Source: Coniochaeta sp. PMI_546 (lineage: Eukaryota > Ascomycota > Sordariomycetes > Coniochaetales > Coniochaetaceae). Taken from it: DNA of 64,000 nt. Location: the NCBI GenBank assembly GCA_021432605.1, contig MU271160.1, forward strand, positions 451,644-515,643, given 5' to 3'. Position 1 is the first letter of the stretch; each line of letters starts with the position of its first letter. The notes beneath the pieces were generated by a model, which was given only the letters and a program-made list of their open reading frames with translations, made no database searches and was not told where the DNA came from. The translations under genes were made by a program, and so were the position numbers. This document shows positions 3,001-58,422 of the stretch, in pieces.

Positions 3001-3357
3001 TACCTCACTGTGCCCGGACGACCGCTAATCCCACAAACCGAACCACTCGACCGTGACTTTCACTTGGCGATCTCCCAAGACGACTTCCTTCTCTTCTCTC
3101 TTTCGAAATCGAAAACTACATCTTATGTTGTCGTCCAGAGCAGGACTTTGATTTCACAAGAAACGCGAAATTCACTCTCTGCAGCGAAGAGGATTCGGCA
3201 GGGCCTTTTTTGTGCCTTGGGAATCGGCCTACCCTCCACTTGCTTGGCACTCGGTGCCCGCCCCTAGAACGGGCCCTCGCCCTCTACAACGTCGCTGCCC
3301 TCGCCAGGTTGAAGTCAGACCATCTCTCCTCTCCGTCTCAACGAGAGAAGCAGGATA
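1..3357. other. Gene-poor region and LAMMER kinase leader
   Basis: No convincing gene is seen in this 3.3 kb. The open frames present are short, rich in Trp, Cys and His, and lack the C-ending codon bias of the real genes here, so they look like chance frames. An A-run lies near 2346-2356 and a CRE-like palindrome at 2022-2033. The last 400 bases are pyrimidine-rich, as expected for a fungal promoter and 5' leader, and run into the kinase start codon at 3358. Base composition is not strongly AT-rich, so there is no sign of a RIP-mutated repeat. Confidence 0.6.
2022..2033. promoter_or_regulatory. CRE/ATF-like palindrome TTTGACGTCAAA
   Basis: A perfect 12-bp palindrome contains the 8-bp core TGACGTCA bound by CREB/ATF-type bZIP factors. 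It lies in non-coding DNA 1.3 kb upstream of the LAMMER kinase. Sequence match only; such sites also occur by chance. Confidence 0.25.
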
Positions 3358-9514: not shown

Positions 9515-9621
9515 CGGTCATTGCGTATGTCTTGAGAATAACATGCATATGTACGATCAGCAGCAAAGTATATACAAACGAATGAACGCACTCTACCCCC
9601 CGTCCCAGCTGGCGCGAAGGC

Positions 9622-12321: not shown

Positions 12322-13501
12322 GACGTCGTTCGCTGTTTGCCGTCTTCCACGAAGCCACAAGAACTTGACTTAGACTCGTCGGGGACAGCAGTAGAAGAGG
12401 CGAGGAGCCGCCATCTTTATGAAGAGGCGCCTTCGCTACCGTTCTCTACTCTCGCTTCCCCACAGTCTCTCTGCGCCACCATAACCACGGCATGGCGGCA
12501 AGCGGTACATCGGCGTACTGTGGTATGAGATAGTGTAATCCTGAATAATGGCATCGACGAAGCCTAGCGAGACCACGCGGTCAACGTGCATTTTCAAAGG
12601 AAGATCCCCGAGAGGACGGGATCCGGACAGGGCTATCCGCCATGTCTGTTCGCCCCTGTCCAGATGTAACGGCGAGGGAGCATCCGGGGTGAAGGAGTGA
12701 GATGGGTGGATTCCACTTGGGCAGGTTTGTGCGTCAACCTGAAGAGCAACTACATCGATGACTTCTATGCCACATGAGACTTGTTTCGGTCTCCTAGCTA
12801 GATGGTTAAAGCCATGTCGATCCTCGTTATTTCTCGAGCACCACCAGAGGTAGTTGAACATAGCACAAGCCTGGACTACCAACATATGCAACAACACAAT
12901 ATCAGTTAATTCTGACAAGGCTGGTCCAGAGCCTCAATAGAAGGACGTCTGAACCGAACCCGGTTTTGCAAGACACAGCGAGACTGCGGGTTGACGAGAT
13001 AAGATCGTCTATAGAGGCTCTTTAAGGGTCGCGGATACATGCTCCGTAAAATTGGACGCACGAGGGCGCGAGAATGCAACCAAACTCCCACTTGAGAACA
13101 ATGCATTTCTCGCTGATTGGACAGAGAGCGACTTCCTTACTTGAAGCCGTGGCAGCGGCTCCGCGCTCGAAGAGGCCGTGCATCGCCTGCACTGTCCGCA
13201 TTGTCCGGGTTCGTGGCCGAAGCCTCCCGCCGAGCCGTCACTTCCCCAAAACGAAACGGTAGTCTGGCTCCGCGATCCACGTTATCCCGAGTTTCGCAGC
13301 ATTGGATCCTGGTTCAGACATTTTGGCCCATCTGCGGGTAGGTAACATTTTCATGTAAGGTATGGACGGAATTTGCTGCATGAGTTTGTGATACATACAA
13401 CGACCTGGAAACCGTGATTCAATCCAGGAAAGCCTCCTGTACGCAGTTGCAGTGTTCTTCTGAGATCCTCGAGTAATGCAACAGGACTTCTTTCCAGACA
13501 T
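12322..13501. other. Intergenic, cellobiose dehydrogenase promoter side
   Basis: This holds the upstream region of the minus-strand cellobiose dehydrogenase and the approach to the tRNA gene. One 160-codon minus frame (12436-12918) has no domain or codon bias. No gene seen. Confidence 0.55.
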
Positions 13502-13574
13502 GGTCTAGTGGCCCAATGGCTAAGGCGTTCGGCTTCGAACCGAAAGATTGCAGGTTCGATCCCTGCCTAGATCA
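13502..13574 (+). tRNA. tRNA-Arg (anticodon UCG), no intron
   Basis: A full cloverleaf folds by eye. The acceptor stem is GGTCTAG with CTAGATC (one G-U pair) and discriminator A. The D arm has GCC and GGC. The anticodon stem is TTCGG with CCGAA around the loop CTTCGAA, giving anticodon TCG. The T arm is GCAGG, TTCGATC, CCTGC. The anticodon UCG reads CGA (arginine). It sits in the gap between the divergent cellobiose dehydrogenase and GNAT genes. Confidence 0.95.
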
Positions 13575-15452
13575 TCAAAGTCTTCTGCTGTCTCCTGTTG
13601 ACAGATGGGCTTGGGAGGACGACATCTCATTTTTGTGAGCGGCGCCGCACTCTTGGCGCGAACCTGCAGTGGCTCTGGATGGTCTATTGCCCAACGCTGG
13701 CTGAGACGCTCGGACTCGGCTCTGGACATCGTGTGTTCGACTTATACCGTGGCGGTCGTGGGATTCTGTTTTGCTTTATCTTCCTCCTCCTAGTTGTCGA
13801 TTCGTTGCTCCTATTGTCAAGCCTTGTTGCACATCTTCCCGACAGTACCCTGCTTCGAAGCGCATCCTTTGGTTTCAGCCTCGAGACACGAGTACGTTGT
13901 TCCTCAGCCGGAGTTTAGCGTTAGGTCGCGCTTTATGATCACCATTCAGGGCGTCTCGAAAGCATCTCCCATAGTTTGTATTCGTTGACTTGTGTGCATT
14001 GCGCCCTCTTGGATTAACATGGCTATTGGATTTGCCAGCAGAGCTCACGCGTATTGTCTGAGCTCACCACCACGGTAAAGCTACCACAGCCCGAAGCAAA
14101 GGTGTCTGACCGTCACTTGTGCAGTCCTAAGTCCCATCTTAAACAAATAATGGGAGCAGTATACCGATCTTGTCTTTCTCTTTAGTACTGGCACCATTGT
14201 ATCAGTGATCAGGAGCGCAAAGACGATTCGGCTTTCTGAAGTCTCCGTAGCAGAGTGGTTCTAAGATAGAGCCCCCTTTGTTGTAGGTCTGGAAGAGGGC
14301 GCCTTCTTACACATTGAAGCATTCCGGTCTCTATGGAACCAATGTTTCATTCCTGATGTCAGATGCAGCAATACTATTCCAGTGGAATACCAGCTTCATT
14401 TCGTTGCCAAGGCTGAAGCCTGAGGGGAACAGACACGCCGCTTGATGGTGTTGATGACCAAAGCCCCTCGGAGCAGACTTCTACAGCCATGGTATGGAGA
14501 GGCGTGGACGTCTCTTTGCTACCTTAAGGGGTATGGAATTATTACAAGATAAAGGATCTATGTGCAGTTACGAGGATCATGGGCTCCGTGACACTTGTTC
14601 TGGTTCGTCCGCGTCCTTGGCCTTATCAAGCTGTTTGCTCGCCAGGGGCATGTCGGCGTCAACTCAGTCACCATAAACAGCGGACCTTTTTTCGCAAACC
14701 AAATCTCAAACTTCACTTCATCTACCGCAGCTGGAAATCCGGAATCTTCCTGAAGTTCTCCCTCACGCAGCAGCAAATATCACCGGCGGGAAGCTCGTGA
14801 GTGCCTTCCTCGACTCGGTACCTTGGGTATTTGCAGAGCTTCTACTCGCAGCCTGAGGTCTTCTTCGTAAGGCAAGATACCTACCCCTCGCGCCTTCCTC
14901 TTCTCTGTCCTCGTTATTTGACTTGTCACGATCGTTTTCTCTCCAACCTCAGGTCCACGCAACCAGCACCTCGTCCATTCCACCTCTGTTTGCTCTTCAC
15001 CTGCTACTTCCTTTCGCCCCTCCACCCTGCGACTTACTTCACTTCTTCTTTCCCTTCCGGAAGACTCCGGGGTTTGTATCCCTAACCTCCCACAAAACCT
15101 CCATATTTCCCTGTCTTCACCGAATCTTGAGCCTTTCTCTTGATTCTCTTCTGCTCAACAAGGACCCAATCCAGCCATCAGACTTCTTCGACTGCAAGCT
15201 TTCAACCCTGCTTTGAGCTCACAAGTGTCAACACTACGTCTGATCCTCAAGTTGGACCACTGGGTAGCTCTCCACCCGCTCTCCGTTGACAACTTGAAGT
15301 CCTTCGTGGTGCCCCGTAAGTTGATATCAGGATATGCCTTTCCTCGTCACTGGAATGACTCTTCCATGATTAGATCGACAACTGACCGTGACGTCTCCAG
15401 AGCACACCTTGTACTCCGTTTTCTAACTTCTTCATCTGGATCTCAAGGCGTG
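13575..15452. other. Intergenic and long 5' leader of the GNAT gene
   Basis: No gene is supported. From about 14870 the plus strand becomes rich in C and T, typical of a fungal promoter and leader. A likely 5'-leader intron runs from the GTAAGT at 15316 to the CTCCAG ending near 15400, with a CTGAC branch-like site. In-frame codons exist upstream of 15453 but begin with TTG, not ATG. Confidence 0.5.
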
Positions 15453-21953: not shown

Positions 21954-23792
21954 CGCCGTGGCCGAACAAAGAGTGGTCGTCGCCGTGTTACCAAGGCATT
22001 GATGGCATATGTGACGGAGTTCGCAATACCGGAAATCCGGAGGGATCACGAGCGATAGTGACAAAAAGAGAAACCCAGGGCCGAGGGAATGCGACAGATG
22101 TCATTGATTATCGAAGAAGGATGGTTGAAGTTGGTACCGCAATATGGTGTTGGAACAAGGGGGAGGGGAAGACCTTCAGCCCCCCCTGGACGTTGGCCTG
22201 GGCTTGCAGTGGGCTTCAGGTTGCGGCAGACCGACCGACCGACGGCGACAATCCATGCGCCCGTCCGACTTTGCCAAGCGATAGCGGCTGCACCGTGCAG
22301 ATAGAAAGTGATGCGAGAGGAATACCTCACAATATCAACGGTGCCTGGCAAAAAGGCATCACCAATACCTTGGTTGAGGAAGGAATATTGTCCAGCCCCT
22401 CGGCCAAAGGGTGGAGGCAGAGAATGATCTGTAACAGATTGTCCCTGGGCTTCGAGACCGATTGAGAAGCCGGCAATGGCCCTGCTAGCTTTCCAGCGAT
22501 CTGCTCCGCCCCAGGCTCTGTCCGCAGCGCCCCAGTGAGTTTAACGGTAACGAACGCTAGGCCGTGGCACAAGCGTCTATTCCGGGCCGTGATTCGCCTG
22601 ACAAGCGTGAGAACTCGTGGGTTGAAACCGGGGTCTGCATCCTTCGGGTGGTCGCTTGTGAACCGATGAAGGGCTGGCACAAGTCCCCTGCAGAATTGCA
22701 CCCAGCTCTTCGGTGACGGACTTTTGGTGACACTGGCTGACTGGCAGAACTTGGGATTAACGGACAGATTAATAAGAAGTCACACTTGACACTTCTCATT
22801 CTCAAAGACAAAAAAGTGACCGAGGGCGGTACGGGTCGCCCGGAAGGTAACCCGAACATGTGGTACGCTCTCGTAGAGCCTGATCAAGAACCCTGGCTTG
22901 CCTGATCATGATGATCACGATCACCCGTCCAGGATTTTGCAGTTGTAGTGTATGCTTTCGCTGCCGAACCTCCCCCTCGTCAGCATCGACATAGCTGGGC
23001 CCCATGTTCCCATTGGCTTGCTTTAAGGATCTGACAAGTGACGCAGTCAGCCCTACCGACGACGACGCCAAGAGTGAAACGGCTGAACACCTCAGCTGGT
23101 GCAACTCGCGCAACCTTGCTTCGCGAGTGGCTGCTGAATGAGCAAGTGTGGGAATATCAACGCGAAACCTGTCAAATGCAAAGTACAGAGGTGAGGTTGG
23201 CCAATAGCAGTACCTAGTTTCGTATCTCTCGAGGAGCACTTGGAAGACGACGAAATGAGAAAGGAGAGAAGCCAGAATGCAAGTAAGCTCCCATCCCGAG
23301 CTGAGAGTCTCGCCCGTAAGTGATTGCATTTACCCTAGTCTTAGAACGGCAATCCAGGTTGTGTCTCTACTGTGATGCATTTCAAATGGTGAGTTTCACT
23401 GAGAACGGAAACCAGCAAAGTTAGTAGAGTGCAGTTTGCTATGTTGGAAGTTGCACAAGATGCGATATTTCAAATAATAATAGACTTGAAAGAATTAGAG
23501 TCATGATGTATCCACGTGTGATATCCGGATAACGGTCATGATTTTCTTTTCCTGACCATACAAGCCAGCAGGTCTGTTGTTCGCTCCTTCCAAACTAACT
23601 GGAGCTGCCAAGAAGCAACTTCCTTACCTGAAAGGTACCTTAGCTGCACCCCTGCACTTTAACTCTCACCGCCCGGGCAGAAAAAGTTACGGAGATGCAA
23701 GCCGCCAAAATTTTGTCTTCAAGCCAAAGGAGACCCCACTATCGCAAACTCACTGCAAAAGCTACCGCCAACCCCGATATCTCTCATTCAAC
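21954..23792. other. Divergent intergenic region
   Basis: Promoters of the minus-strand membrane protein and plus-strand DRS1. Open frames (for example 22802-23329 minus) look like chance. A continuous open stretch in the DRS1 frame begins near 23577 but has no ATG before 23793. AAAATTTT at 23707-23714 resembles the RRPE element of ribosome-biogenesis promoters; weak evidence. Confidence 0.5.
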
Positions 23793-26234
23793 ATGGCGCC
23801 GTCACAGAAGAGGAAGGCCGTCGACGACGACTTCGTGTTCACAATCTCCGACAATGAGGCAGATATAGCCCCCGAAGAGGTGATCGAGGCCGCAGCGCCG
23901 CCAAAGAAGAAGGCCAAGAAGGACAGCAAGAAGTCAAAGAAGAACAAGCGAGCCACAGAGGACGACGACGAGCCCGCAGAAGAGCCGGCCGAGAGCATAT
24001 GGGGCCAGAAAGATGAGGACGACGGAGCCATGGACTCGGAGTTCGAGTTCATTGCCGACGAGGGCGCCAATGAGCTCGAGGGAGACGAGTTTGAGGGATG
24101 GGGCTTCGACGGCGCCAAGAAGGGCATGAATACACTTGAGAACAAGGGCGTTGACCTCGACGAGATCATCCGGAGACGTCGCGAGAAGAAGGAGAGTAAA
24201 ACCGACGCTGCTGGGGCAACTGAGGAGACCAATGGCGATGCTGAGGAGGCGGAGGAGGAGGAAGAGGACCTCGAGATGGACGACGACGAGGACGGGGTCC
24301 TTGCCGAGGATGGCTTCGGCATGGGCGTCGGATCTGATGTCGACGAGGAAGAAGACAAGAAGGATGATGACGAGGACGACGACGACGACGAAGAGGAGGA
24401 ATACGAGGATGGCGACGAGCCTGCCTCGGACGACGACTCCGTGGCTACCCCTGTCAACCACCCGGAGGACGACGGGCGGTCAGACAGCGAGGACGACGAA
24501 GATCCAGAGGAAGCAGCAAAGAGAGAGGCATTCTTCGCACCTGAAGAGAAGGAGAAACCGGGCAAGAAGACCAACCTGTCCTCCTTCCAAGGAATGTCAC
24601 TCTCACGTCCGATCCTCCGGGGCTTAGCGAACGTCGGCTTCACCAAGCCCACCCCCATTCAAGCCAAGGCGATTCCGATTGCCTTGATGGGCAAGGACGT
24701 GGTCGGAGGCGCCGCCACCGGTTCCGGAAAGACTGGCGCGTTCATCGTCCCCATCATCGAGCGCCTGCTGTACCGGCCCAAGAAAGTTGCGACCACCCGC
24801 GTGGTTATCCTCCTGCCGACCCGTGAACTGGCAATCCAGTGTCACGCTGTCGCGACTAAACTGGCTAGCTTCACCGATATCAAGTTCTGTTTGGCTGTTG
24901 GTGGTCTGAGTCTCAAGGTACAGGAGGCCGAGCTGCGGCTGAGGCCGGACGTTGTCATTGCCACCCCTGGTCGTTTCATCGATCACATGCGCAACTCTCC
25001 CAGCTTTACCATCGACACCGTCGAGATTCTGGTTCTCGACGAGGCCGATAGGATGCTCGAGGATGGGTTCGCGGACGAGCTCAACGAGATCCTGACGACG
25101 ATGCCAAAGTCTCGCCAGACCATGCTGTTCTCCGCCACCATGACTTCATCCGTCGACCGTCTTGTTCGTGTCGGAATGAACAAGCCGGTGCGGATAATGG
25201 TCGACTCGCAGAGCAAGACAGTCACTACTCTGGTGCAGGAGTTTGTGCGTCTCCGTCCCGGGCGAGAGGAGAAGCGGATGGGATATCTTGTCTACCTCTG
25301 CAAGAACTTGTACACTGAGCGCGTGATCATCTTCTTCCGGCAGAAGCGGCACGCTCACAGAGCACGCATCATCTTTGGACTGTTGGGATTGTCATGCGCT
25401 GAACTTCACGGCAGCATGAACCAGACACAGGTATGGTTTCTGTCTTTTTTTTCCCTCAAGTGTAAATGACATCTGCTGATAATGTACCAGCGTATTGAAA
25501 GCGTCGAAAACTTTCGAGACGGCAAAGTCGCCTTCCTACTAGCTACAGATCTCGCCTCTCGTGGTCTGGATATCAAGGGGGTGGATACGGTCATCAACTA
25601 CGAAGCGCCACAGTCACTGGATATCTACGTGCATCGTGTCGGAAGAACAGCCCGTGCGGGCCGCACCGGTACCGCCGTGACACTAGCCGCGGAGCCAGAC
25701 CGGAAGGTCGTCAAAGCCGCCGTCAAGGCCGGCAAGTCCTCGGGCGCAAAGATCAGCAGCCGAGTGATCGACGCGGCCGAGGCGGACAAGCTGCAGGCGC
25801 AGATCGACGAGATGGAAGATGAGATCGAGGAGATCATGGAGGAGGAGAAGCAGGAGAAGGAGATCGCGCACGTGGAGATGCAGGTCAAGAAGGGCGAGAA
25901 CATGATCAGGCACGAAGAGGAGATCAAGGCGCGGCCGAAGCGGACGTGGTTCGAGACGGAGAAGGACAAGAAGGAGGCCAAGCTCGCGGGCAGGGCGGAG
26001 CTGAACGGGGTGCGCGAGCAGCTGAAGAAGAAGGGCAACGGGCAGCTGAGCAACAAGGACAAGAAGAAGCTGGATGCCAAGGCGGCGATGAGCGAGGGAC
26101 GGGCGTGGAAGAAGGGCAGGGCCGAGAGGGACGGCAAGGGGGCGATCGAGGCGGCCAAGAAGGCCAAGAAGGCGCAGAAGGTCAAGAGGGCGGCTGGGCC
26201 GGGCAAGTCAAAGTCCAAGGGTAAGAGGAGGTGA
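23793..26234 (+). CDS. DRS1: ATP-dependent RNA helicase DRS1 (DEAD-box, DDX27 type)
   Basis: Two exons: 23793-25430 and 25491-26234, giving 793 residues (yeast Drs1 is about 750). The first 260 residues hold basic clusters and long Asp/Glu runs. The helicase core carries the motifs in order: Q-motif region [33 protein letters not shown], then after the intron [10 protein letters not shown] and [11 protein letters not shown]. The C-terminal 190 residues are Lys/Glu-rich and helical, ending in a Lys/Arg tail. Drs1 acts in the nucleolus on early steps of large-subunit (25S rRNA) assembly. Motif order, the acidic N-terminus and the basic tail together favour DRS1 over other DEAD-box members. The single intron splits the protein between motifs IV and V. 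Confidence 0.93.
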
Positions 26235-35431: not shown

Positions 35432-37909
35432 CTAGAAATACATAGCCTCCCCAGGACTAGAAATAACAAACTCGCACCCCAGCTGCGCCTCCCTCTCATA
35501 CTCCTCCAGCTCGCTCCGGATAATCTCCCCCACGGGCGGCCCGTCATTCAGCTTCTCCTTCAGGTGTATGAGCACGACCCTCAAGCCCCCAAGCGGGAAC
35601 TGCGCGGCCGGGGGCGGCCCCGACGCCACGCTGCCCGGCCCGCTCGCCGGCGTCGCGGGGGCCGACATCTCCGCGTCCCGGAGGTTGAGCTCGGCCGTCG
35701 GCGTGGCCACGTGCGGCGTGCTGAGGATCGAGCCGGAGCCGGAGCCGGAGCCGCGCTCGTCGGGCAGGGACTGCGACTGCGACAGGGTCGACGACTGGCG
35801 GCGCGGGGGCTTGACCGTCTTGGGCGACACCGGGTCGTCCCCCGTCAAGAGAGGGCTGGAGGTGGCCGAGACCGCCATCCGGGCCGCCCTCCTCCTCGTC
35901 AGGATCCGGGGGCCCTCGCCGTCTTCCCTCTTGCGCTTCCTCTTGTCCAAGCCGCCATGACTAGATGCCCTGTCCTGGCCACCACCACCACCACCACCGG
36001 CAGCAGCAGCAGCCTCGCCGGCCTCCTGCTGCGAAGCCAGCTGCTGCTGCTGCTGCCGCCGCGCCGCCCTCACCTCCTCGGCCAGATTGGCCATCTCCTG
36101 CATGATGAAGCGGGGCGCGAGATGCCCAAACAGACGGTCGACGCTCTGCGAGTCGTCGAAGCTGCACTCGATGAATATCGCCGCCAGCTTCCCCGTGGCT
36201 ATCTTGGGCGCCGCCTCCTGCCATATCTGCTGGTTGCGCGGGCTCAGGCTGATGCTGTCCGGCTCCACGTCGCCGAACATCAGGATCTCGCGGCCCGTGA
36301 CCACGTCGCGGATGAAGTAGGCGCTGCTGTCGTAGACGCACACCGTCTCCGTCGGGGCCCCCGCCGCCGAGGCCGACCCGGCCCGCTGGCCGCCGCTAGG
36401 GGCCGAGCTGCCGGCCAGGACGCCCTGCGGGGTGCTGGCCAGGTGCATCTGGTCGCGGTGCTGCTGCTGCTGCAGGATGATGCCGAGGTTCGGATTGATG
36501 TTGCTGTGGTGGGGGAGGCTCCGGGGCGACAGCAGAGGCATGCTGCTGCTGCTGGCGCCCAATCCCGCGCCGCCCATCCCCATGCCGACGGGTCCCATGG
36601 CCAGCGACATGGAGGCGGCATCCATGCTCCCGTAGCGGGTGCTGCTGTCGCTGCCGCGGTGGCTGTGCTTCTCGATGCAGTGGCCGTGGCTGACGCCCCA
36701 TACCTTGACTGCCAGATCGTCGCTGATCTCCATGTAGCCTTTGCCCTCGCCCTCGCCGAGGGCCGGCGAGCCGCCCTCCACCAGCCGCATGTACGTCACC
36801 AGACCGGCCCCGTTGTTCTCGTCGCTCAGGTTCGGCCAGATGACGTTGTTGAATATGTGGGTCTTGAAGGCGGCGATGGTGCTCGGGAGCCCGGCCAGGC
36901 GCTTTGGCCTGGAACCGGGCAGGCCGGCTGTGTTGATGACGAAGCCGGAGATGTGGTCGAGGTGCGGGTGCGTGATGAGGTAGGTGTCTATGAGATTCCT
37001 GTGTATGTATGCGGCGTTTGCCTCTGCTGAGGCGAAGGGGACCTCCAGTCCTCGGAACGGGCCTGAGGTGAGGGTGTGCGGTAGTGCCAGCTCGTCGGTC
37101 AGGCCGAGTTCCGGTGGCTGAGTTTCACGTAGTATTTTCGTTATCGCGCTGAGGTGCACGCCGGCATCGACTGCTATTATCGAACCTTTCCTCCAGCCTG
37201 ATGAGAGAGAGCGGACCAGGAAGGCTGTTGTGTTGGATTCCACTGGCCCTCCACCGGAGCCCTGTTAGTCGAGTTAGTGCGGTCTTCTTGACTTGTGTAG
37301 GTTGTGATGCCGCCCAGGAGTGGAATTTGGCAGGAGAATGTGCTTTAGCGACATCTCGTGTTGTGGTAGTTGAACTCATGGAGCATGTTGATGATGGAAC
37401 CCAAAAACAGTTTGCCGGCATTATACAACGACCGTCTCCGCCAAGCTCAACTATGGATGTAATTCTCCCTTCGACAGGATACCTAACAATAGGTAGGCGA
37501 TGACAAGGTTGGGGCATTGGGCGTAACGAGGTGGGCTTCTGTATAAGCTCTTTGTTCAAATCTCACTTGAGAAAGACAAAGAGATTATATGCCAGCAGCC
37601 GGTGGTCGACACCGGGGACAACCCCAGGCTGGCTGTCCTTGCACGAAGGGCTTCTCCCCTCGTTTTCAGCGAGGATCTAGCAAACGTTTCTCGTTCCCCA
37701 AATATGCGAAGCGAACGCGGCCTCTCTAGATAGTGCATGTAATGCTGCACTCGGGACAAGGGATTGCAGGATTCGGCCAAAGTAACCCGCACATCCTGGA
37801 GTCTTTTGGGGGGTTGATGACAATGATGTCGATGAAATAGGCGACTCACAAGAACGATTACCTGTAGCGCCGCCGCCACATCCTGGGCGTTTACCCTCTC
37901 ACCTCCCAT
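35432..37909 (-). CDS. PDE1: Low-affinity class II 3',5'-cyclic-nucleotide phosphodiesterase
   Basis: Two exons: 37909-37850 and 37261-35432, giving 629 residues. Exon 1 (20 codons) ends ALQVIVL and exon 2 begins GSGGGPVESNTTAFLVRS, so the join rebuilds the family's first conserved block. The metal site is LITHPHLDHISGFV near residues 112-125, with later blocks SAYFIRDVVTGREILMFGDVEPD and IFIECSFDDSQ, and the end block LRVVLIHLKEKL. The enzyme hydrolyses cAMP in the cytosol, lowering PKA signalling. Disordered Gly/Ser/Gln-rich inserts lengthen it compared with yeast Pde1 (about 370 residues). The single intron is 588 nt, about ten times the usual size in this window. Confidence 0.9.
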
Positions 37910-39776
37910 GAGCGCCTGTCGGGATCTCTGTCGCGATCCACAGTGCCGTTGATCCGGGATGGGAAAGCGAAGAAATGCGATGTGTCAACTGGGAATAATT
38001 GCCTTGTCTCTCGGGCCGGCAATTCGGCGTCCTGCAGGAAGCCGAGATTGCAGTTCGATAGGTCAGATCGTCTCTTCACGGCAGTGGTGTGCTTGGACGG
38101 TTGGTAGTGAGAGGAGAGAGATTAGCTGATGCCGAGTTACAAGAATCAATTGCACCTTTGTCTCCAAGATATAGTCGGGCAAGGTAGAGGTAGTTAAGTT
38201 TGAAGCTGTCTGTTGCAGGTCTCTCTGGTGGGACCCTAGTGTAGACGCAGGTAGTAGTACTGGTAGTACGTGTAGTACTGGTAACTCAGGCCGTCAGATG
38301 GGAATCTTTGGAGAGGCGACGAAACAAGGAAGGCGTTGAACTGAGCCGCATTTGAACTTGAAGGGCAGGTACCGTGGCAATGGTCAGTGGTTGCTTCCCT
38401 CCAAGAAGAGTGACAGGGGGGGTCCATGAACTTCGGGAAGGAACGTCACGACGGACCTGGGAGAAAACACGTGATATTGCTCTTCACAAGTCGTGTACTG
38501 TACCTCCAGGTTTTTCTGTCTTCTGTTCTCTTTGTGACAACGACGGCTTCCAGTTTCTTTTTATCTCTTTGTCAATGAATCCCGTCTCTCGCAGCTTCGA
38601 GGACGATAAGAGGCACGTGAGTCGGTATCTGCTGGAACCGTCCAAAGATCGGCAACACTTGATGCAATAACGGGCGCAGCAATGGAATGCCGACAAGAAA
38701 TCCCACTAGGCCAACTCTGTAAACGTGAACGGCAGTGAAAGACAAAGACATCATGCGAGTGTACAAACCATGGGAATCGCGCATCTTATCAGTTTCTTTC
38801 TGCCTGCACAACACACCCGAAGCCGTTTTATGCTGGCACGAACCTTAGCTATAGTGGAGTGTTCCTCAGCCCATCGCTTGACATGCATACTGCAGCCAGT
38901 TACCTGCCTCCCAACCTAGTACTATGGTAGAAGGGCTGCAAGATCGTGCAGCTTGCATGGCCCCAAGTCTGTCTCCAGTCCAGGTTCCCGTCCCCACAGA
39001 TATGCATCTTCAGAGTATCGCGTTGGTAGCTTTGGCCTCGCGATGACTTTCTCTATAATTCCCAGTTGGAGTTCATTGCGTAACTTTATAGAGAGAGTGG
39101 ATCGAGACAGCATTCTTCTCATCGCCTAATCAGTAAAACCTGCAATACTTTTGTCCCTGGACGAGCAGCAGGTGGCCTGGATTCTAGGTCCAACGCTTGA
39201 GCAAGCCACAGCGGTCTCTGGATGCAATTGAAAAGTTCAGGTACTTCTCGGACTTGCCGCTGGTGCAGTAGCGCCATCGGGCACAACGAGCCAATCTCGA
39301 ACCAGGCGTCATGTCGGAACCACCGTGCTGCCATCTCTTATTGCCATCCTCGATGCACCTGACATGTCACGCATCAGGCATTGTTCGTCCACCGCCTGAC
39401 TTGGCTATTGTCTGAGCTGTCGACGCCGCATCTGCTTGCTTGCCTTGTGACTGGGCCATGGATGCTACTCTGGCCTGTACAGTGCAGCTGCCTGTGAGTC
39501 GAGTCAGCAAGTCGGAGTCGTCACGGAGCCAGGCCCTATGTCAGTCAATTGGTCATGGTGAGGATAAAGAAACTACGAGTTAGGAGTCCAGGGACACAGG
39601 ACTCGATATGACAATGTTTACAACATAATACTTGGACTCGATTAGAAAGAAAGTAGTGTTCATGTGCGACTGTAACCTAATTGGATTACCATTCTCTCCA
39701 CACACCCGTATATAGAAAAGCGAAGTGAGCATATCACCAATTCTACTCACCTGTCCTACTTACCTGGAATCAGCCT
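37910..39776. other. Intergenic, no gene seen
   Basis: Upstream of the phosphodiesterase and downstream of the next minus-strand gene. It holds a short 9-bp repeat (38254-38280). Frames under 100 codons only; none convincing. Confidence 0.55.
38254..38280. repeat. 9-bp tandem repeat (gtagtactg x3, imperfect)
   Basis: Three consecutive 9-bp units with the AGTACT-type core; the middle unit differs by two bases at its end. Non-coding. Confidence 0.6.
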
Positions 39777-42245: not shown

Positions 42246-44436
42246 TTCAGTATCGTCGAACACTATGCTGGTTCGAGGCCCACGACTCACAGGTAAGAAA
42301 CAGGTGCGAGTATCGGTAGTAGATAGTGTGTGCGGGAATTCGAAGTGTTGCGAGTCACAATGGAGCGGGTTAAGCGTGGAAACAGACAAGCGACTTGTCC
42401 TGTTGAGGGCCTCTCACATGTGTGTATATATAGGACTCGAGGAGCATCCTTTGACCATCGTCGAGGTCATAGACATTCTCTTCCTCGCAGTGACAAAGAT
42501 CGGGTAGATTTGGGTGTCTTTATCTGGAACAAAGACCTCGCTTGGGTTCAAGGCATGACACAATCGACATAATCGAACGCACTTGCTCCTTACAGGGGGA
42601 CAGCGTAGTCAAAGAGAAGATGCTTCAAGAACAATTGACTTGTCACATAATCGCTCCGCTCAGCGATAGGTTGGCAGTCAGGATGGATTCTATCATTGAC
42701 ATCATATGTGTGACTCGCTTCAGTATGGGATATATTCTTATATTCCTCTGCTTGGCTATGAGGCTGTGAAGGCCAGTGACAACTAAAAAGGCGAAGTCCT
42801 CCTCGAGAAAAAGGACAGACTTGAGCCGGTTCGTAGAGTGACCACGAACATGATATCTCGCAGGGAATCAGAACTGACGACGCTTTCTCAGTCATTCAGC
42901 AACCCTAGGTTAACGACTTGCTCGAGATTCCTCACTTGAGGCACGGCTCGACGCAGTAGAGCAGCACAGGCAGGACACAACGATGCCAGTTCAGCGGTGC
43001 CTACTCCTGCTGAGTTCATCTGATCTCTGCTGCCTAACACCGAACCAAGGGATAAAACAGCGGCGAGCACAGACGGTTGCTGCTCGTGAACTCGAAACTA
43101 CTTGATCGATCATTAGCACTTTTGCCATCCAATATCGAAGGCCGTAAGAGGTGAAACGATTCGATTTTGAATCAGTAGATGTTAAGCACGTTATCAACAT
43201 GGGTATTCAGAACAGGTCTGTGATATAATGCGTATTGTTCTCATCATAAAAATCGAGGGTAGGAGGCCAAGAGGGAACAAGGGAACGCAACATACCGAAT
43301 CCATAATGGGAGCCACGCAACAGTTCTGACATGCTTAGTCCTCGTCAGTTACCAGATGGGTGTCCATTGGGTGTCCATTGGTCGTCCATCCAGTGTCCAT
43401 CAGCACCGTCGTGTCATTTTATAGCATCGCCCGAGCTCTCTAGGGCAACAGTGAGAAAGGTAAGGCCTAGCCTTCAACCAGATCCGGTGTCAGATGTCCT
43501 GGTAGCCAACCATGAAGAGCGCCACATAGACATCTTCAGGATGTATGGTGACCTCGTATTTCAGACACTGAGGAATACGATCTCATCAGAGTGAGAAGGT
43601 GACAAGAGAGAAAAAATCAGTGGCCAAAAGTCACAGAAATAGAAAATCTCCAGGGTCCACAATGTCCAGGCGGGTGCACGGGCCAGATACTGAACTGGCT
43701 CTGAGTACTGTGTCCTGTGTGTGCGACTCGCAGCAGGTGTACGAGGGTACCTGAGAGAGGGGCTCTTTCTGCAGGGGTCGTCAAGATCCCTGTCGATATT
43801 CAAGGGGCCGTGCTTTAGCCGGGAGGAAAGAGCGAAAGACAAAGGACAGAAGTCGTGCTTACCCAACCAGAAGCAGTCTGTAACAACAACAAACTCGTAT
43901 ACCTTGCAGTCGTGTGTAAGATGGTGAACTGTAAAATGTATGAAATTCACAAGTGATAGCAGACATACCGGAATGGGTTTGGAATTAACTCAAGTAGATA
44001 GCAGAATTCTTTGGACACAAGGCCTGCCGTCCGGGCCGAGCCCACTAACTCGCAGGATGTACACATAAAACTGACGAAAGCTGGACTCGCTCCCTCCCCG
44101 CCTTTCCCAAAAAAACAACCTTCGACCCCTGCATCCTTCTCCAGCTGGCGGAAAGTCTCCCACTACGTCACGAGACAGATAATCCAAGCCAAGGCCGGCG
44201 CCAATCTGCCACCACATCCAGACAGATGACTTAGACATAGCTATATACTTGTCTCTGGCCTAATAAGTCTTGAGTCTGTATACACTCCACATCTGGGTCA
44301 ATCGTCCTTGCTACAGAGACTCGGAGCATCTTCCGAGCCCCTCGTGCCGACTATTGTTCTGGGGGACGCCGTCGAGGCCGGCTAGGCTCTTCTGGCTCGC
44401 ATCTCTCAACACAAACCCCCTCGTGTCAAATCTACA
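42246..44436. other. Divergent intergenic region
   Basis: A 2.2 kb promoter region between a minus-strand gene and the plus-strand Cps1/DIP2-like gene. A short repeat of gtgtccatt lies at 43358-43400. No frame with coding features was found. Confidence 0.5.
43358..43400. repeat. Short 10-11-bp repeat of tgtccatt
   Basis: Four tandem imperfect units share the core GTCCAT, the first two being exact (gggtgtccatt). Non-coding; could be a cluster of binding sites or a simple repeat. Confidence 0.5.
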
Positions 44437-47400
44437 ATGGCTGGCCTCAGTCCGGATCTGGAGGAGAAGCTCCAGGAGCTCGAGAAGGAGCTGGAGGTAC
44501 GCCATCCGAACATCCACCTGACTCTGACTATTTGACCATCGAGATGCCCTTTGCTGACGTGCGGTTCTGTGAGTAGGAAGGCGACATTACAGAGAAAGGG
44601 TACGGCGCTTATACGGACCCGACAACGAACCATTCATTCCGCGAAACCCTTATTGTGCCTTCGCGTAAATAATCACTGATATATGTGTTCCATGACAGGT
44701 ACCAGAAGAGACGAACGCAACTCCTCTCAGTATACGGCCTAAGTGCTATACCACAGCCTACGTCCGGCCTCCGAATCCACTCACCCGACAGCACTACTCA
44801 TCCTTCGGCCGATGGGCACCGTGCGGCCACCCTGGCTGCTCTCAACGCGAATGCCTCACCGACAGATCCGGGGAGCCCCTACCCACCGGCAACGATAGCC
44901 TCCCCGACAGACTACCGACCGGACTCCTCCTATGCTCAACCAGACCCAGCAACTCTTCTGGCGCCTGGCGGCCCCATGGCCGACCATCGGCCGCCAATGC
45001 GGCAGAACGACTCTCTATTTCTCGCTCCTGCACCGCAGGTTGACCCTTCGACTCGTTCTGGAACGATGGTCTCTGGCGACTATGCTTTCAATCCCGAGCA
45101 GCACGGCGGTCACTACATGGAGCCGCCACAGAACCCCTACGATAGCCGGACGGGCACCTTGCTGGACTCACAGGGCTATTTCTCGGACTTTGCCGGCCAA
45201 CAGCAGGCCTACGATCAGATGGCACCTGGCGAGTACGGCGGCCCTCAGAGATATTCCACTGGCGATGCCTTCTCACCCACTGCCGCCATGGCACCTCCGA
45301 TGCTGACGGCCAGCGACCTTCCGCCTCCCGACGCGCTCGAGTACATGATGCCGCTTGAACCCAGAGACCTACCATCAGCCATATACGACCCACACGACGA
45401 GAACACCCCAATGTCCAAGTTCGACAACATAGCAGCGGTGTTGAGACACCGTGGAAGGACGACCGCCAAACTACCTGCGTACTGGGTCCTGGATAATCGT
45501 GGAAAGGAGACGGCCTCCATCACGTGGGACAAGCTCGCTTCACGGGCCGAGAAGGTAGCCCAGGTTATCAGGGACAAAAGCTCGCTGTATCGTGGCGACC
45601 GTGTGGCGCTTATATACCGCGACACAGAGATCATCGACTTCGCTATTGCCTTGTTGGGATGCTTCATTGCTGGAGTTGTCGCGGTGCCGATTAATGACCT
45701 TCAAGACTATCAGAAACTGAACATGATCCTGACCTCGACCCAGGCACATCTGGCCCTGACCACGGACAACAATCTCAAAGCCTTCCAGCGTGATATCACC
45801 ACTCAGAAGCTCAACTGGCCAAAGGGTGTCGAGTGGTGGAAGACCAACGAGTTTGGCAGCTACCATCCCAAGAAGAAGGACGATGTTCCCCCGCTTTCCG
45901 TCCCTGATCTTGCCTACATCGAGTTCTCACGCGCGCCTACAGGCGACCTGAGAGGAGTCGTCCTCAGCCACCGCACAATAATGCACCAGATGGCTTGTCT
46001 CAGTGCTATAATATCTACGGTGCCGGGACACGGACCGGGCGACACTTTCAGCACTACTTTGCGAGATAAGAACGGAAGACTGATCGGCGGACACGCGAGT
46101 AGCGAGATATTATTGTCGTACCTTGATCCGCGGCAAGGCATAGGCATGATTCTTGGTGTCCTGCTGACCGTTTATGGCGGACACACGACAGTATGGCTGG
46201 AGAACAAGGCTGTGGACGTGCCCGGGCTCTATGCTCACCTTATCACGAAATACAAGGCCACGCTCATGGTGGCGGACTACCCTGGGTTGAAACGAGCCGC
46301 CTACAACTACCAGCAAGATCCAATGACGACAAGGAACTTCAAGAAGGGCATGGAGCCGAACTTTGGGACCGTCAAACTCTGCTTAATCGACACGTTGACC
46401 GTCGATAGCGAGTTCCACGAGGTGTTGGCTGATCGATGGTTGCGGCCACTCCGCAATACCCGGGCTAGAGAAGTTGTGGCACCCATGCTGTGTCTCCCAG
46501 AGCATGGCGGAATGGTGATCAGCATAAGAGACTGGCTGGGCGGCGAGGAGCGGATGGGCTGTCCCTTGAAACTGGACATGGGGACGGACTCCGACTCGGA
46601 GGATGAAAAGGCCAAGGAGAAAGAGGAGAAACCGGCAGCATCCAACGGCTTCGGAAGTCTTCTCGGAGGAGGAACTGCCACCGCTACAGAACAGCGCGCT
46701 AAGAACGAGCTGAGCGAAGTCCTCCTCGACAGGGAAGCTCTCAAGACCAACGAGGTTGTTGTAGTCGCAATCGGCGAGGAAGCGAGGAAGAAAGCCAGCA
46801 GCGAGTTGGGAACGGTCCGGGTCGGTGCCTTCGGCTATCCTATCCCCGACGCTACACTTGCCGTCGTCGACCCCGAAACTGGTCTCCTGGCCTCTCCACA
46901 TTCGGTTGGCGAGATCTGGGTCGACTCTCCCTCGCTGTCGGGCGGCTTCTGGGCTTTGCCCAAGCACACGGAGCAGATATTCCACGCGAGACCCTATAAG
47001 TTCGACCCTGGCGATCCGACTCCGACTCCAGTGGAACCCGAGTTCTTGCGGACCGGCCTGCTGGGTACGGTCATCGAGGGCAAGATTTTTGTTCTTGGCC
47101 TGTACGAGGATCGGATCCGGCAGAAGGTCGAGTGGGTAGAGCACGGCACCGAGATTGCTGAGTATCGATATTTCTTTGTTCAGCACATCGTGATAAGTAT
47201 CATGCGCAACGTTCCCAAGATATTCGACTGCTCGGCCTTCGACGTCTTTGTCAACGAGGAGCATCTGCCGATCGTCGTGTTGGAATCTCAAGCGGCATCA
47301 ACAGCGCCGGCAACGTCCGGTGGCCCACCGAGACAGCTGGATACACCGCTTCTCGACGCCCTCGCCGAGAGATGCATGGAAGTACTGGTTCAGGAGCACA

Positions 47401-53253: not shown

Positions 53254-53934
53254 ACTGGGCGTTTGTCGTCAATGCTGTGGCGGCGTTGCGTTGGTTGCTT
53301 GCGGTGCTCTCAGTCGTCAGTGGCTGTCGTGATGTCTCGAAAAGCGATGGTCGGCAAGTGGCCATGAAGCGAAGTCTAGAGGTATCTCGGCAAGGCAATG
53401 AGGGTCATCAAGTCGTAAGGAAGGCTGGAACGGCGGTGAGCTGGCTACACGCGGACTGACTTGGATTCTGCTCGACTTACAACAAAGGACAGCGACGTCA
53501 AACGAAGAAAAGACACCTGAACTCCGGCCAAATGCAGAGAGAGACGAAGGAAGAAGGGAAACAAAGCAAGCCAGGAAGCAAGAGAGGCAAGCAATTACTG
53601 GTGGTGACTGTCGAATAGCTCTGTTTACCGGGTTATAGGTGTTTCTTGCACGATCCAAAGTCGGAACATGAAGATATCATGGTGGATTTCGGTGTTTGGC
53701 ACAGATATGTGGCGGCAAGAAAAGAGGACGCCGGGAAGGTGCAGGTAGCTGTCCTCCTTTTCTGGGGAAAAAAAACCTGGCGGTGCAGGCGGTGCAGGCG
53801 GTGGTGGGTGTGAAATGACGGAAATTGATGAATTTGGCTGACAGGGGGTTGTTGTGTTTACTCTCTCTCTGCCAGCCTCTGGATGCTCGGACCCACTTCG
53901 GGAAGCGGGATGCTGCATTGGCTCCCCACAAGCG

Positions 53935-53958
53935 AGGGAAGGAGGGAAGGAGGGAAGG
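53935..53958. repeat. Purine tandem repeat agggaagg x3
   Basis: Three exact copies of an 8-bp all-purine unit on the plus strand, able to form unusual DNA structures. Non-coding. Confidence 0.65.
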
Positions 53959-55065
53959 AGCTTCCGTCAAGACAGTGACACATTTGATGATACCTACAGC
54001 AAGGTACCTTTGTACATACGTGTGAGCAGTCGAGGATTGAGAATCTAGGTATAGTCGTTGTTTAACGTCAACTCATCTATCCAAATCATTTGTGAATGCA
54101 GTGTTTGACCCAGAACCATTTTCTCGGGGTTCCAGACTGTGGAGGAAGAAATTACCAACTCCTCACCCAACGTAGTTGACGAAGAAACGCCACCACCCTC
54201 CTCTACCCGCGCAAAGAGACCCGGAAATGGAAGCATTTTTCTCCAAAGAGCTCCTTCCCTGTCAAGTGGCACCTCGTGCTTGCTGAAGAAATCCATTACA
54301 AACGAACATCCATTGCCAAGACCCTGAACTGCTCGCTCACATCTGCATCTTCTGTTTGCTCTTCTGCCGTCCAATTGCTTCCTCTCACCCCGCTCATCGA
54401 CGCGTCTCGACTTGCTCAATTCGAGCGAATCGACGAGGATAGCTGCAAAACAAAGCGCGCTGCATGATCGGTCCAGAGTGGCATTGGCACAGTTGAAGTG
54501 TCGAGCCCCATATCTCCAGAGCGGCGGGCTTGTGATGTGTCCAATGCCACGAGATTGCCCAATCTTGTCGCTGTGACAGGCTGTCCGAAGCACACCGCGA
54601 CCCACCCGCACCAGCAGCTTGCTCGTCAGTCTCGTCAGAGCGAACCGCGGAGGAACTGAACATCCCCGGAATGAGCCAGCCAGTGAAACCCATAATCAGG
54701 CTGTGCTGATGAGCAAACGGGCTTCAACGTCGCCCTCTCAGGCAGGGAAGACTTGGTGTAGTATAATTGGCCTCTATTTGCATCCGTATAGGCCCAGCGA
54801 GGGAAGGATGCGCAGCATTGTGTGGACTGGCGGATGCTCCCATCTCCAGCGGATTCTGAGCGTTTCACCTCCGCTGGCCCACCATCAATCGATGACTTTA
54901 ACCATACCATAACATCTTTCACTCACAGTGCTATGGTAATAATCAGCGGCAGCTACGGTAATGATCATTCCCGCGGACTCGGCGGCTCATGAAATTTGTT
55001 GGACAGCGAAGAGAGAGCGGCGGTTCTGGATCTCTGGACCAGTCTGAAGCTGCCGCGCTAAAAAC

Positions 55066-55078
55066 GTTGCCTAGCAAC
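55066..55078. promoter_or_regulatory. RFX-type X-box GTTGCCTAGCAAC
   Basis: It matches the consensus GTNRCC, a short spacer, RGYAAC exactly and lies in a perfect inverted repeat (ACGTTGC, CTA, GCAACGT). RFX/Crt1 factors bind such sites, for example in DNA-damage control of ribonucleotide reductase genes in yeast. The nearest gene start is the membrane protein, 1.8 kb away, so the target is unclear. Confidence 0.45.
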
Positions 55079-55945
55079 GTCGCTAGCTGCATTGACAGCG
55101 GGTACTCCCTCTGGCTGCGGGCGCTGCCCGACCTGTCGGGTGACGTAGCCTTGCCGCGGGGTGCGGTCCGGCCAAGACATGCTCCACACTGCCACCTGGC
55201 GCCTGCATGAGCGATTCTTCCTTTCTCCAGGCAGCAAAACAAAAACAGAGTCGTGCCTGTCGTGGTACCTGTGTACACGTATCATCGCTGGAGGCATCAT
55301 CGCCCATCGAGGGACGAGAAGGACGGGCATCAGTGGCCATGAAGTCGACATTGTGAATTTCTGTGCCAGAGCCGGGATATGGTTCCTGTACTATGTAAGA
55401 GACATCGCACGCGCACAGACAGACCAATTGACAGGGTGGGACAGTCATCTGACTGCTACCGCTGACTTGGATCTGGGACCGGGTCCTGTGTATCATTAAC
55501 GTTGTTGCCATTGCTCTCTTGGGGAAATCCCGATATAGGTATCTGAATGTGGACGCGACTTGTTGGCGATTCCTGGTCGCGTCGAACAACGTCCCTCACT
55601 CGTTCCTGGTTGTGTATCCGTGGGTCTGATCATGTCACACCGCCAGATCATGCTGCATGTCCCAGCTCAGTACTATGTACCGCACAGGAACGTGCATCAA
55701 GGACGCAGATCGAGTAGCCCGTTATCGGCTCGAAGTCGATTGAGCTTCAATGAGAAAACACAGACCACTTCGATGCTGCGGCATCGCGAGTCCTCAATAC
55801 CTTAGTCATTGAGTGAAATATGAAGCAAATGTGCATGTGCATACTATGCTACCTGCCTCCCAATGTCTCCGTGTACAGATACAATACAAATGTTGAACAG
55901 ATAAGAGGTATCAAACGTGATCAGACAACGCAGGTCTCCGTAGTG

Positions 55946-56368
55946 TCACAACCTCCCATCTCGATGTGGCATCCAAACCAGTCCCAGCTCGATAAACATG
56001 GCAAGCACATCTGAGATCCTCTCCAGGACCCAGCCAAGGAGAACTGCAATCCAAACGCTCGCTAAGACGATGCGGACCAAGACCGTGAGGATATTGTCTA
56101 TCATGCCCGCGCCGACGTCAGCATCACTATTCGTAGTTTGGTTCCAATCGATATGCTCCTTGATAACGAAAGCGGGTGTACACTCCCCTTTCGCCTTCTT
56201 CTCATCGCTAAGTCCACGACCCTCCTCCTCGCGCTTCTCATCGTCCTCAATGGTATCATCACACCCGTTTTCATATCGCCGTTTCTCCTCTCCATCAACT
56301 TCGTCGTTCTGCTGCTCGCACTCGCCTTCATCGTCCTCCTCATCTCCATACTCACCGACATCAGGTAG
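55946..56368 (-). other. In-frame 140-codon extension after the VAM7 UGA stop (possible readthrough)
   Basis: Directly after the VAM7 stop the codon is CTA, giving UGA-CUA, a known readthrough-promoting context. Checked triplet by triplet on the complement, the VAM7 frame is open from 56368 down to 55949 and stops at TGA 55948-55946. The encoded piece starts with about 65 very acidic residues (EYGDEEDDEGECEQQ, DDTIEDDEKREEE). It then holds a hydrophobic stretch of about 22 residues (ILTVLVRIVLASVWIAVLL) near codons 93-115. It has no suitable start of its own. Splicing that removes the stop is an alternative; a chance frame is possible. Confidence 0.4.
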
Positions 56369-57475
56369 TCACCCTCCGAGCCTCTTAGTCCTCTCCTTGG
56401 CAACCCTAATCTTGCCCCCCAACCGATCAACATCCTGATCCATCCGATCCATATACTCAATCTGCCTATCCACCTCATCCTTGATCGCCAACCCCATCTC
56501 CTTCTGCCGCCTTACAATCTGAGCCAGCGCATTGACATCCTGATCCTGCTCCTCCATCATCTTCCTCTGCAACAGCAGCACCCCATCATTGTCTAGCTCC
56601 CTAGTGCTCTCCGTCTCCGGAAGCGGCGCCCCCAGCACCCTCCCAGTCGTCCTCGAGCTCCCCGCCCCCGCACCCGCCAGCAGCGCCGCCTTATCCCCGT
56701 GACTAGCCGGCCCGCTCCCCCCCGTCACAGAACTCGCCAGCGTCACACTCAGCTTCTCAAGCCCGTCCCTCTCCGCCCTCGCAGCAGAAACCAGATCCCT
56801 CCTCCTCCTGAGCTCCCCCTCTCCCAACCGCCCATTCTCCTTCAACACCCTGAGCCCGTCATTCAACCCCACAATCAAGCTCCCAGCCTTGACCAGCGCC
56901 CGTTTCGCCGCACCCCCAGCCTCGATCCTCGCCGAGCTGCCCTCCGGCGCCGCATCCCTCCTCGCCAGCGCCATCCTCGCCTCGTGCAGGGCCCCCTTCA
57001 TCTCCCGATGCAGATCCAGCCACGTCCCGGGATCCGTAGCAGCAACCATTCCATTCGCCGCCGCAGCGGCCACGACCCTCGTCCCGCTCACCCCGCTCGC
57101 ACTGGCCGCGCTCCCGGCCGCCGTGGACGGCAGGTTCAGGAAGGCCCGCCAGGCGGTCGTGTCGCGCCACCGGCGGTCGGGCGTCTCGGCTATCGACCTC
57201 AGGTACGTCTCCAGCCCCTTGCGGCGGGCCTCGGTCAGCTCCGGGGAGGAGACGGTGGACTTGAACCACGACTTCCCCGGTAGGGGTGCGGGCGGCGGAC
57301 TGCCGACCTGGGAGGTCAGGGCGGCGTGCAGGGCGGCGAAGTCGGAGTAGCGCTTCTGCACGACGAAGGAGCGCAGGGGCAGGCGAAGGGTTATGTTGTA
57401 GAGGGTGTAGGGCTTGCCGTCGGCCGAGGAGGTGAGGGAGGTTGTTGGGATGGAGATCTCGGCGGGTGGTGCCAT
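56369..57475 (-). CDS. VAM7: Vacuolar Qc-SNARE Vam7 (PX domain)
   Basis: Single exon, 368 residues. The N-terminal PX domain (about residues 5-125) holds the phosphoinositide site QKRYSDF (Arg42, Tyr43) and the PLPGKSWF turn. The middle, about 125-300, is helical and Ala-rich. The C-terminal SNARE helix (about 305-365) ends IRVAKERTKRLGG; its central layer Gln lies in KDEVDRQIEY, as in yeast Vam7. Vam7 is recruited to vacuoles by PI3P and HOPS and forms the vacuolar fusion complex with Vam3, Vti1 and Nyv1. Like the yeast protein it has no membrane anchor before its stop. The stop context (UGA CUA) and the open frame after it are unusual; see the adjoining feature. Confidence 0.93.
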   Translation of the reverse strand: MAPPAEISIPTTSLTSSADGKPYTLYNITLRLPLRSFVVQKRYSDFAALHAALTSQVGSPPPAPLPGKSWFKSTVSSPELTEARRKGLETYLRSIAETPDRRWRDTTAWRAFLNLPSTAAGSAASASGVSGTRVVAAAAANGMVAATDPGTWLDLHREMKGALHEARMALARRDAAPEGSSARIEAGGAAKRALVKAGSLIVGLNDGLRVLKENGRLGEGELRRRRDLVSAARAERDGLEKLSVTLASSVTGGSGPASHGDKAALLAGAGAGSSRTTGRVLGAPLPETESTRELDNDGVLLLQRKMMEEQDQDVNALAQIVRRQKEMGLAIKDEVDRQIEYMDRMDQDVDRLGGKIRVAKERTKRLGG

Positions 57476-58422
57476 GGTTTTGGTTCGGCAGGCTCGTGTG
57501 TCGTGTGTTCGGGTTGTGGTCCACGATGTAGCGTGGAATATTGAGTGGCTTCGTCCAATAACTGATAAATCAAGGGTCTGATTAGTGGCAGAGATGTGTC
57601 AGAAGTCAAAGCCTCTGCAGATAATGGAGAATCTTGGTGCAGCTTGCACCAAAAAGGTCGGTGATGTTGTGCAAATGAGAGAGATGACGATGTTGCTGGG
57701 CGGCAAGTTGAGGTCGCACCTGCCTGCACATGTCATAGGGTACCCCAAATCCTGCCGTTTTGGGGAAAGTGCGTATACGTATCCAGGGTCCTTCCATTTT
57801 GGCCACTCACTGATACCTGGGTACATCCCACTTCCTTACTTGAAAAACACAGAAAGCAATAGCATAAGAGACATATTAGATGAGCTGAAGGATACCTAAT
57901 TCACTTGCACCGAACTGCTGTTTGTGCACATAACTCGCTCGCAGTACAAGTCTCCGTCATCCATGTTTTGCCTTCCGGGGTGGCTCACCAGTCAGAAAAC
58001 GGAAGGACGCCTTGACAGGAACACATGGATTTACAACCACCGATATATGGGAAAGGTACCTTAGTAAAGGACATTAGAGTAATGTCTCTCAGTGCAATCA
58101 GAGAAAAGAGCAGAAAGTCTTTTAGTCTATCATCATCATGACACGCAGAGTCCCTTGGCTCCTATAACCGGTGCCAACACAATGTCTCCTCGGTTTTGCT
58201 CCCGGTGAGAACCCTCAAACACATACAGGGCCTCATCCGACCCAATGCAAACCACGACATCTTGCTATACTGCCAAGTACAGACCATCTTTACTTCCGCA
58301 CGCCTAGTCCCTCTTCACTGATTGACGCTCATGATGTCAAATCAGTATCACCTCTCCAACTGCCTCAACCAACCCGAACATCCGCATTTCTACCCTTCCA
58401 ATCCACGCAAGGTAGAAAGCGC
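57476..58422. other. Intergenic, no gene seen
   Basis: VAM7 promoter and the trailer of the EB1 gene, which lies on the same strand. Frames of up to 104 codons without coding features. Confidence 0.55.

Follow-up and report, generated by a model that had tools for sequence, protein, structure and literature searches.

A coding-like extension behind the UGA CUA stop of VAM7 in Coniochaeta sp. PMI_546 and its possible translation by stop codon readthrough

The VAM7 gene of Coniochaeta sp. PMI_546 ends in TGA CTA C and is followed in the same frame by 140 further open codons, which carry a gene-like coding signal and encode a hydrophobic segment, and no acceptable intron is found around the stop. 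The best single explanation, which we hold tentatively and place just short of an even chance, is low-level readthrough of the stop codon that would yield a tail-anchored form of Vam7. Such a process had been proposed in an initial annotation of the window, i.e. the whole stretch of 64,000 nucleotides that was analysed here. The readthrough part of this proposal gains support from the stop context and from the coding-like VAM7 frame, while membrane anchoring of an extended Vam7 may be surmised from one hydrophobic segment. The features concerned are located as follows.

56369..57475, minus strand: VAM7 coding sequence, 368 codons plus TGA, a single open exon with its ATG at 57475
57176..57370, minus strand: PX domain match in VAM7 (Pfam PF00787, E 2.8e-13)
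56390..56557, minus strand: SNARE motif of VAM7 (phmmer match to syntaxin 8, 1gl2 chain D, E 1.9e-05)
56365..56371, minus strand: stop context TGA CTA C with the TGA at 56371-56369, read directly from the sequence
55946..56368, minus strand: in-frame extension of 140 codons plus TGA, an open frame with coding-like periodicity and score
56174..56368, minus strand: acidic linker, extension residues 1-65, with 28 D/E and 9 K/R
56036..56092, minus strand: hydrophobic segment, extension residues 93-111, with a KD19 maximum of 2.64

VAM7 is identified by a PX domain and a SNARE motif, which were detected with a Pfam profile and by phmmer against the PDB, and the ORF also matches the Vam7 PX structure (PDB 1kmd, E 2.4e-06). 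Judging by the match to syntaxin 8, the SNARE motif is of the Qc type. This match covers residues 348-403 of the 409-residue stop-to-stop ORF and ends six residues before the stop. VAM7 itself reaches a KD19 maximum of 1.17 and has no transmembrane (TM) segment after its C-terminal SNARE motif, as is characteristic of the Qc.III SNARE Vam7. The latter is introduced as a soluble fungal protein without the C-terminal TM region found in most SNAREs (PMC2639358), and the accessible text of two papers describes it without a membrane anchor (PMC2639358, PMC5643095). Because Colletotrichum CfVam7 is given as a protein of 366 aa, encoded by a gene of 1,101 bp and with its SNARE domain at 299-366 (PMC8551764), the TGA of VAM7 lies at the position where the Colletotrichum protein ends. 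A length of 361 aa is stated for Drechslerella Vam7 in an excerpt of the paper on it, and the excerpted texts of papers on Vam7 of Magnaporthe, Verticillium, Drechslerella and Fusarium contain no mention of a longer tail.

The TGA CTA C at the end of VAM7 agrees exactly, coordinates included, with what the initial annotation had reported; the stop is preceded by G at -1, the base after CTA is C, and UGA CUA itself represents a weak termination context. The accompanying claim that this context promotes readthrough in fungi finds backing in reporter work with tpi1, for which the fungus used was reportedly Ustilago maydis. In this fungal reporter, CUA directly after UGA was sufficient for readthrough, as stated in the excerpted source (PMC4207609), and for human MDH1, sequence beyond the UGA CUA context is described as being without effect (PMC5133446). 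The mammalian consensus, as excerpted, includes a G after CUA, where VAM7 has C, and A or G at -1 is said to raise readthrough (PMC12233894). RNA structure downstream of the VAM7 stop is unremarkable (z -0.49), which, like the missing G after CUA, counts against readthrough.

It had further been claimed that no other gene in the window shares this stop context. TGA CTA is present at two of the 17 ORF ends examined (VAM7 included; some of these may mark the end of an exon and not of a gene), namely at VAM7 and at the ORF ending at 4323 (+), and the claim holds for these 17 ends because the second TGA CTA, at 4324 (+), reads as lying inside a kinase intron. The first exon of the kinase corresponds to the ORF 3313-4323 (+), whose frame reaches the TGA CTA at 4324, and at 4285-4343 (+) this exon appears to enter an intron of the form GTAAGC...TGACTAAC...CAG. 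Here, the in-frame TGA CTA is probably an intron branch site and as such a trap for readthrough scans, and 4324 (+) was rejected as the end of a second gene with this context. Another false readthrough signal is found in a DEAD-box helicase (23556-26231, +), in which the frame is open on both sides of an in-frame TGA at 25467. This TGA seems to belong to a short intron, GTATGG...CTGAT...CAG, and Helicase_C continues in the next ORF. Elsewhere in the window, two adjoining ORFs at 9596-12003 (-) match a cellobiose dehydrogenase cytochrome domain and a GMC oxidoreductase domain.

Downstream of the VAM7 stop, the next in-frame stop is the TGA at 55948-55946, so that the frame indeed stays open for 140 codons, and the initial estimate that chance would achieve this in a few cases in a thousand proved fair. 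For comparison, five unannotated stretches were picked by hand as noncoding controls (53300-55940, 12950-15100, 37300-39700, 42650-44650 and 57650-58150). At least 140 open codons follow 4 of their 613 stops, frames running off a stretch being dropped, and dinucleotide shuffles stay open at frequencies of 0.0002 for the extension alone, 0.0005 for a wider region and 0.0055 for the whole intergenic region. By itself, in a scan of many genes, the open length would not be compelling, and the noncoding controls hold other open frames of 142 to 216 codons. The stretch 53300-55940, which spans about 2.6 kb between the VAM7 extension and the next long minus-strand ORF, contains open frames of 170 and 216 codons without coding signal.

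Beyond what could be known at the time of the initial annotation, the extension, read in the VAM7 frame, resembles protein-coding sequence. Three-base periodicity amounts to 28.6-50.8 in seven 210-nt windows wholly inside the extension (centres 56060-56240; those further up reach into VAM7). In comparison, none of 578 noncoding windows exceeds 25, and the median of 895 gene windows is 26; toward the end of the ORF the periodicity drops to background. A second-order periodic Markov model was trained on 17 ORFs of the window, with VAM7 included and the extension left out, the coding set consisting of long ORFs that are partly backed by Pfam. Under this model, the VAM7 frame of the extension scores +19.8 bits, and none of the remaining five frames exceeds -3.8. 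Broken down by part, 56153-56368 contributes +20.2, the 29 codons that follow +6.2 and the last 39 codons -5.9; over these last codons every one of the six frames scores below zero, the VAM7 frame being the least negative. When VAM7 was excluded from training, the extension still scored +19.5 bits, a value below which 24 of 110 held-out gene windows of equal length fall (median 37.8). The noncoding stretches also served to train the noncoding model; the main score was repeated with these stretches and VAM7 held out, and the conclusions were unchanged. The four open frames of 140 codons or more in the noncoding controls came out at -20.2, -33.7, -29.7 and -28.8 when the stretch containing each was held out. 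Block shuffles of the extension that contained no stop (576 in all: 216, 186 and 174 at three block sizes) never reached the observed score or periodicity, the best attaining -2.8 bits and a periodicity of 22.6 versus 52.8 for the extension. Taken alone, 55949-56152 is periodic in the same phase, with 6 of 1580 controls being as strong. The extension is hence open and coding-like in frame, as would be expected for readthrough, and the weakness of its third codon positions counts against this.

This weakness is apparent from several measures. GC3 is 0.59 in the extension versus 0.82 in VAM7, and the synonymous score of the extension is -0.03; of 720 gene windows, 78 fall below this value, and of 1528 noncoding windows, 99 exceed it. 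The acidic half fares worse, as 33 of the 720 gene windows fall below it and 339 of the 1528 noncoding windows lie above it. When 56153-56365 was recoded with the codon usage of the window's genes, codons as poor as the actual ones arose in only 0.4% of cases, and the sliding codon score sinks to -0.09 at 56000. Much of the periodicity stems from GAN codons; once these are removed, 20 of 1386 noncoding controls match the extension in periodicity. The weak synonymous codons are unlike those of a strongly translated gene; they would suit rare translation, but also no translation at all.

Regarding the layout of the extension, the residue count bears out the strongly acidic character that had been ascribed to its first 65 or so residues. 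The hydrophobic stretch that had been noted behind them is seen in the 19-residue Kyte-Doolittle maximum of 2.64 at residues 93-111; among the 82 open frames of 60 or more codons in the noncoding controls, one reaches this value. A suitable start codon of its own is missing, as previously noted, with the earliest ATG at extension residue 89. The extension has no match in Pfam, PDB, Rfam or NCBIfam. It was rejected as a duplicate of another gene of the window, among which the matches beyond itself are weak at best (E 2.3), and an origin of the acidic tract from a tandem repeat was likewise rejected, with no repeat detected there. Separate searches of prokaryotic and viral contigs with the SNARE part of VAM7 and with the extension gave no match, which has no bearing on conservation. 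From the stop to the hydrophobic segment the linker comprises 92 residues, while ordinary SNAREs are described as having a short one; this difference and the lack of family matches count against readthrough. A shorter connection is conceivable through one further feature.

56098..56355, minus strand: possible intron inside the extension (GTGAGT, GCTGAC, TAG), 258 nt, in frame

This intron would excise the acidic linker. Its splicing in a portion of the transcripts would bring the start of the hydrophobic segment to six residues behind the stop and thereby recreate the arrangement of ordinary SNAREs, a SNARE motif joined to a TM segment by a short linker, that is absent from Vam7. The intron counts as weak evidence, since a comparable partner lies within 300 nt for 30 of the 200 GTRNGT donors in the window.

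Several other readings of the extension have to be weighed against readthrough. It may simply be the 3' UTR of VAM7, purine-rich and by chance open, periodic and endowed with a hydrophobic run, which we regard as unlikely. The CTA would then be a coincidence of about 1 in 64, singled out by a reader seeking such contexts, and the extension was picked for study because it is odd. The long open frames in the noncoding controls, a synonymous codon choice that is intermediate between genes and noncoding sequence, and the contribution of GAN codons to most of the periodicity agree with this reading as well. However, the four other noncoding open frames are neither periodic nor coding by score, none of the 576 open shuffles, which preserve composition, is periodic or scores as coding, and the extension is free of tandem repeats. 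Rather improbable, too, is that the VAM7 frame codes, or formerly coded, without any readthrough, be it through a recently acquired stop, as the remnant of a tail, through a strain or sequence difference, or in an isoform that skips the TGA. The coding signal in the VAM7 frame would be accounted for in this way, the two other in-frame stops of the window (helicase 25467, kinase 4324) look like plain introns, and the in-frame intron 56355-56098 inside the extension has a good donor, branch and acceptor. Because the helicase and kinase stops look intronic, introns that would remove the VAM7 TGA were searched for, with donors up to 200 nt upstream, a length of 45-300 nt and retention of the frame. 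The four candidates obtained were rejected: none has even a YTNAY branch site and two would cut into the SNARE motif. A-to-I stop-loss editing was rejected on sequence preference, as the A of the VAM7 UGA is preceded by G, while fungal editing is reported to strongly prefer U at -1 and, in its stop-loss form, to act on UAG (PMC11156358). Coding without readthrough is also at odds with the location of the VAM7 stop at the end point of Colletotrichum Vam7 as given in the excerpted source (PMC8551764), and it leaves the CUA as a coincidence.

The opposite strand offers another candidate over part of the same sequence.

56153..56368, plus strand: antisense ORF (ATG start, 71 codons, two hydrophobic segments), its TAG at 56366-56368 being the reverse complement of the CTA

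A small antisense gene encoding a 71-residue protein, with its TAG abutting the VAM7 stop tail to tail, is quite improbable in our estimate; the plus-strand ORF is nevertheless a real rival that accounts for part of the signal in the VAM7 frame. The acidic GAN codons would be NTC codons read in reverse, and the CUA a reversed TAG; among the codons for Ile, Val and Phe, the NTC form is here the commonest, and for Leu it ranks second. The synonymous score of this ORF, 0.284, lies above all 1734 noncoding and 615 of 832 gene windows, its GC3 is 0.73, both hydrophobic segments are pronounced (KD19 2.19 and 3.18), and codon recoding over 56153-56365 comes out slightly better on the plus strand (density 1.07 vs 0.71). 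Yet, recoding over 56066-56365 favours the minus strand (1.85 vs 0.44), and an antisense gene leaves the open, periodic minus frame and the hydrophobic segment below 56153 unexplained, where part of the sequence has stops in the plus-strand ORF's own register. Moreover, with the plus strand taken as coding, only 15% of the recodings made of 56153-56365 keep the minus frame free of stops, and over that region the Markov model, with a training set not chosen for membrane proteins, favours the minus strand by 21 bits. No upstream exon was found for the plus-strand ORF, and there was no family match, a longer version giving one sub-threshold hit (PF20682, E 0.053). Among the other genes of the window, it has beyond itself only a weak match (E 1.4).

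In the case of readthrough at VAM7, most ribosomes would halt at the UGA and release the ordinary soluble PX-SNARE of 368 residues, while a small fraction, probably on the order of a percent, would admit a near-cognate tRNA at UGA CUA and continue for 140 codons. The product, if stable, would consist of Vam7, the acidic linker and the C-terminal hydrophobic segment as a possible tail anchor. Provided that it enters a membrane, this minor Vam7 pool would then no longer depend on PI(3)P binding alone. That readthrough is programmed and one gene thus supplies two Vam7 SNAREs, a soluble PX-anchored and a minor tail-anchored one, appears possible but doubtful. Full-text literature searches yielded no report of readthrough together with Vam7, so that a readthrough form of Vam7 appears unreported in the literature searched; a literature search for hydrophobic readthrough tails together with BAG6 yielded no paper either. 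If biologically relevant, the anchored form would provide a natural test of whether Vam7 must be soluble and would carry readthrough in fungi beyond peroxisomal enzymes and into the machinery of vacuole fusion.

Several known systems invite comparison. In filamentous ascomycetes, A-to-I stop-loss editing would likewise add a C-terminal extension in a regulated way, but according to the excerpted source it acts on UAG with U at -1 (PMC11156358), whereas VAM7 has UGA with G at -1. In Drosophila, eight readthrough extensions with predicted TM domains are listed, and the SNARE Syx17 is said to have one with a farnesylation signal (PMC3840789). The likeness lies in a membrane anchor that may be gained through readthrough by a SNARE or another protein; in contrast, the Drosophila cases are based on ribosome profiling (PMC3840789) and concern an animal, a different SNARE and a different anchor. 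With the metabolic enzymes of fungi, VAM7 shares UGA CUA and an in-frame extension that might localise part of the protein pool, yet the enzyme extensions, according to the excerpted text, carry a peroxisomal targeting signal (PMC4207609), whereas that of VAM7 is 140 codons long, belongs to a SNARE gene and comprises an acidic linker followed by a hydrophobic segment. Finally, the 368-residue form corresponds to Vam7 as portrayed in the accessible part of the literature in having a PX domain, a C-terminal SNARE motif and no TM region, while the putative extended form would differ by precisely the kind of C-terminal hydrophobic segment that Vam7 is said to lack (PMC2639358).
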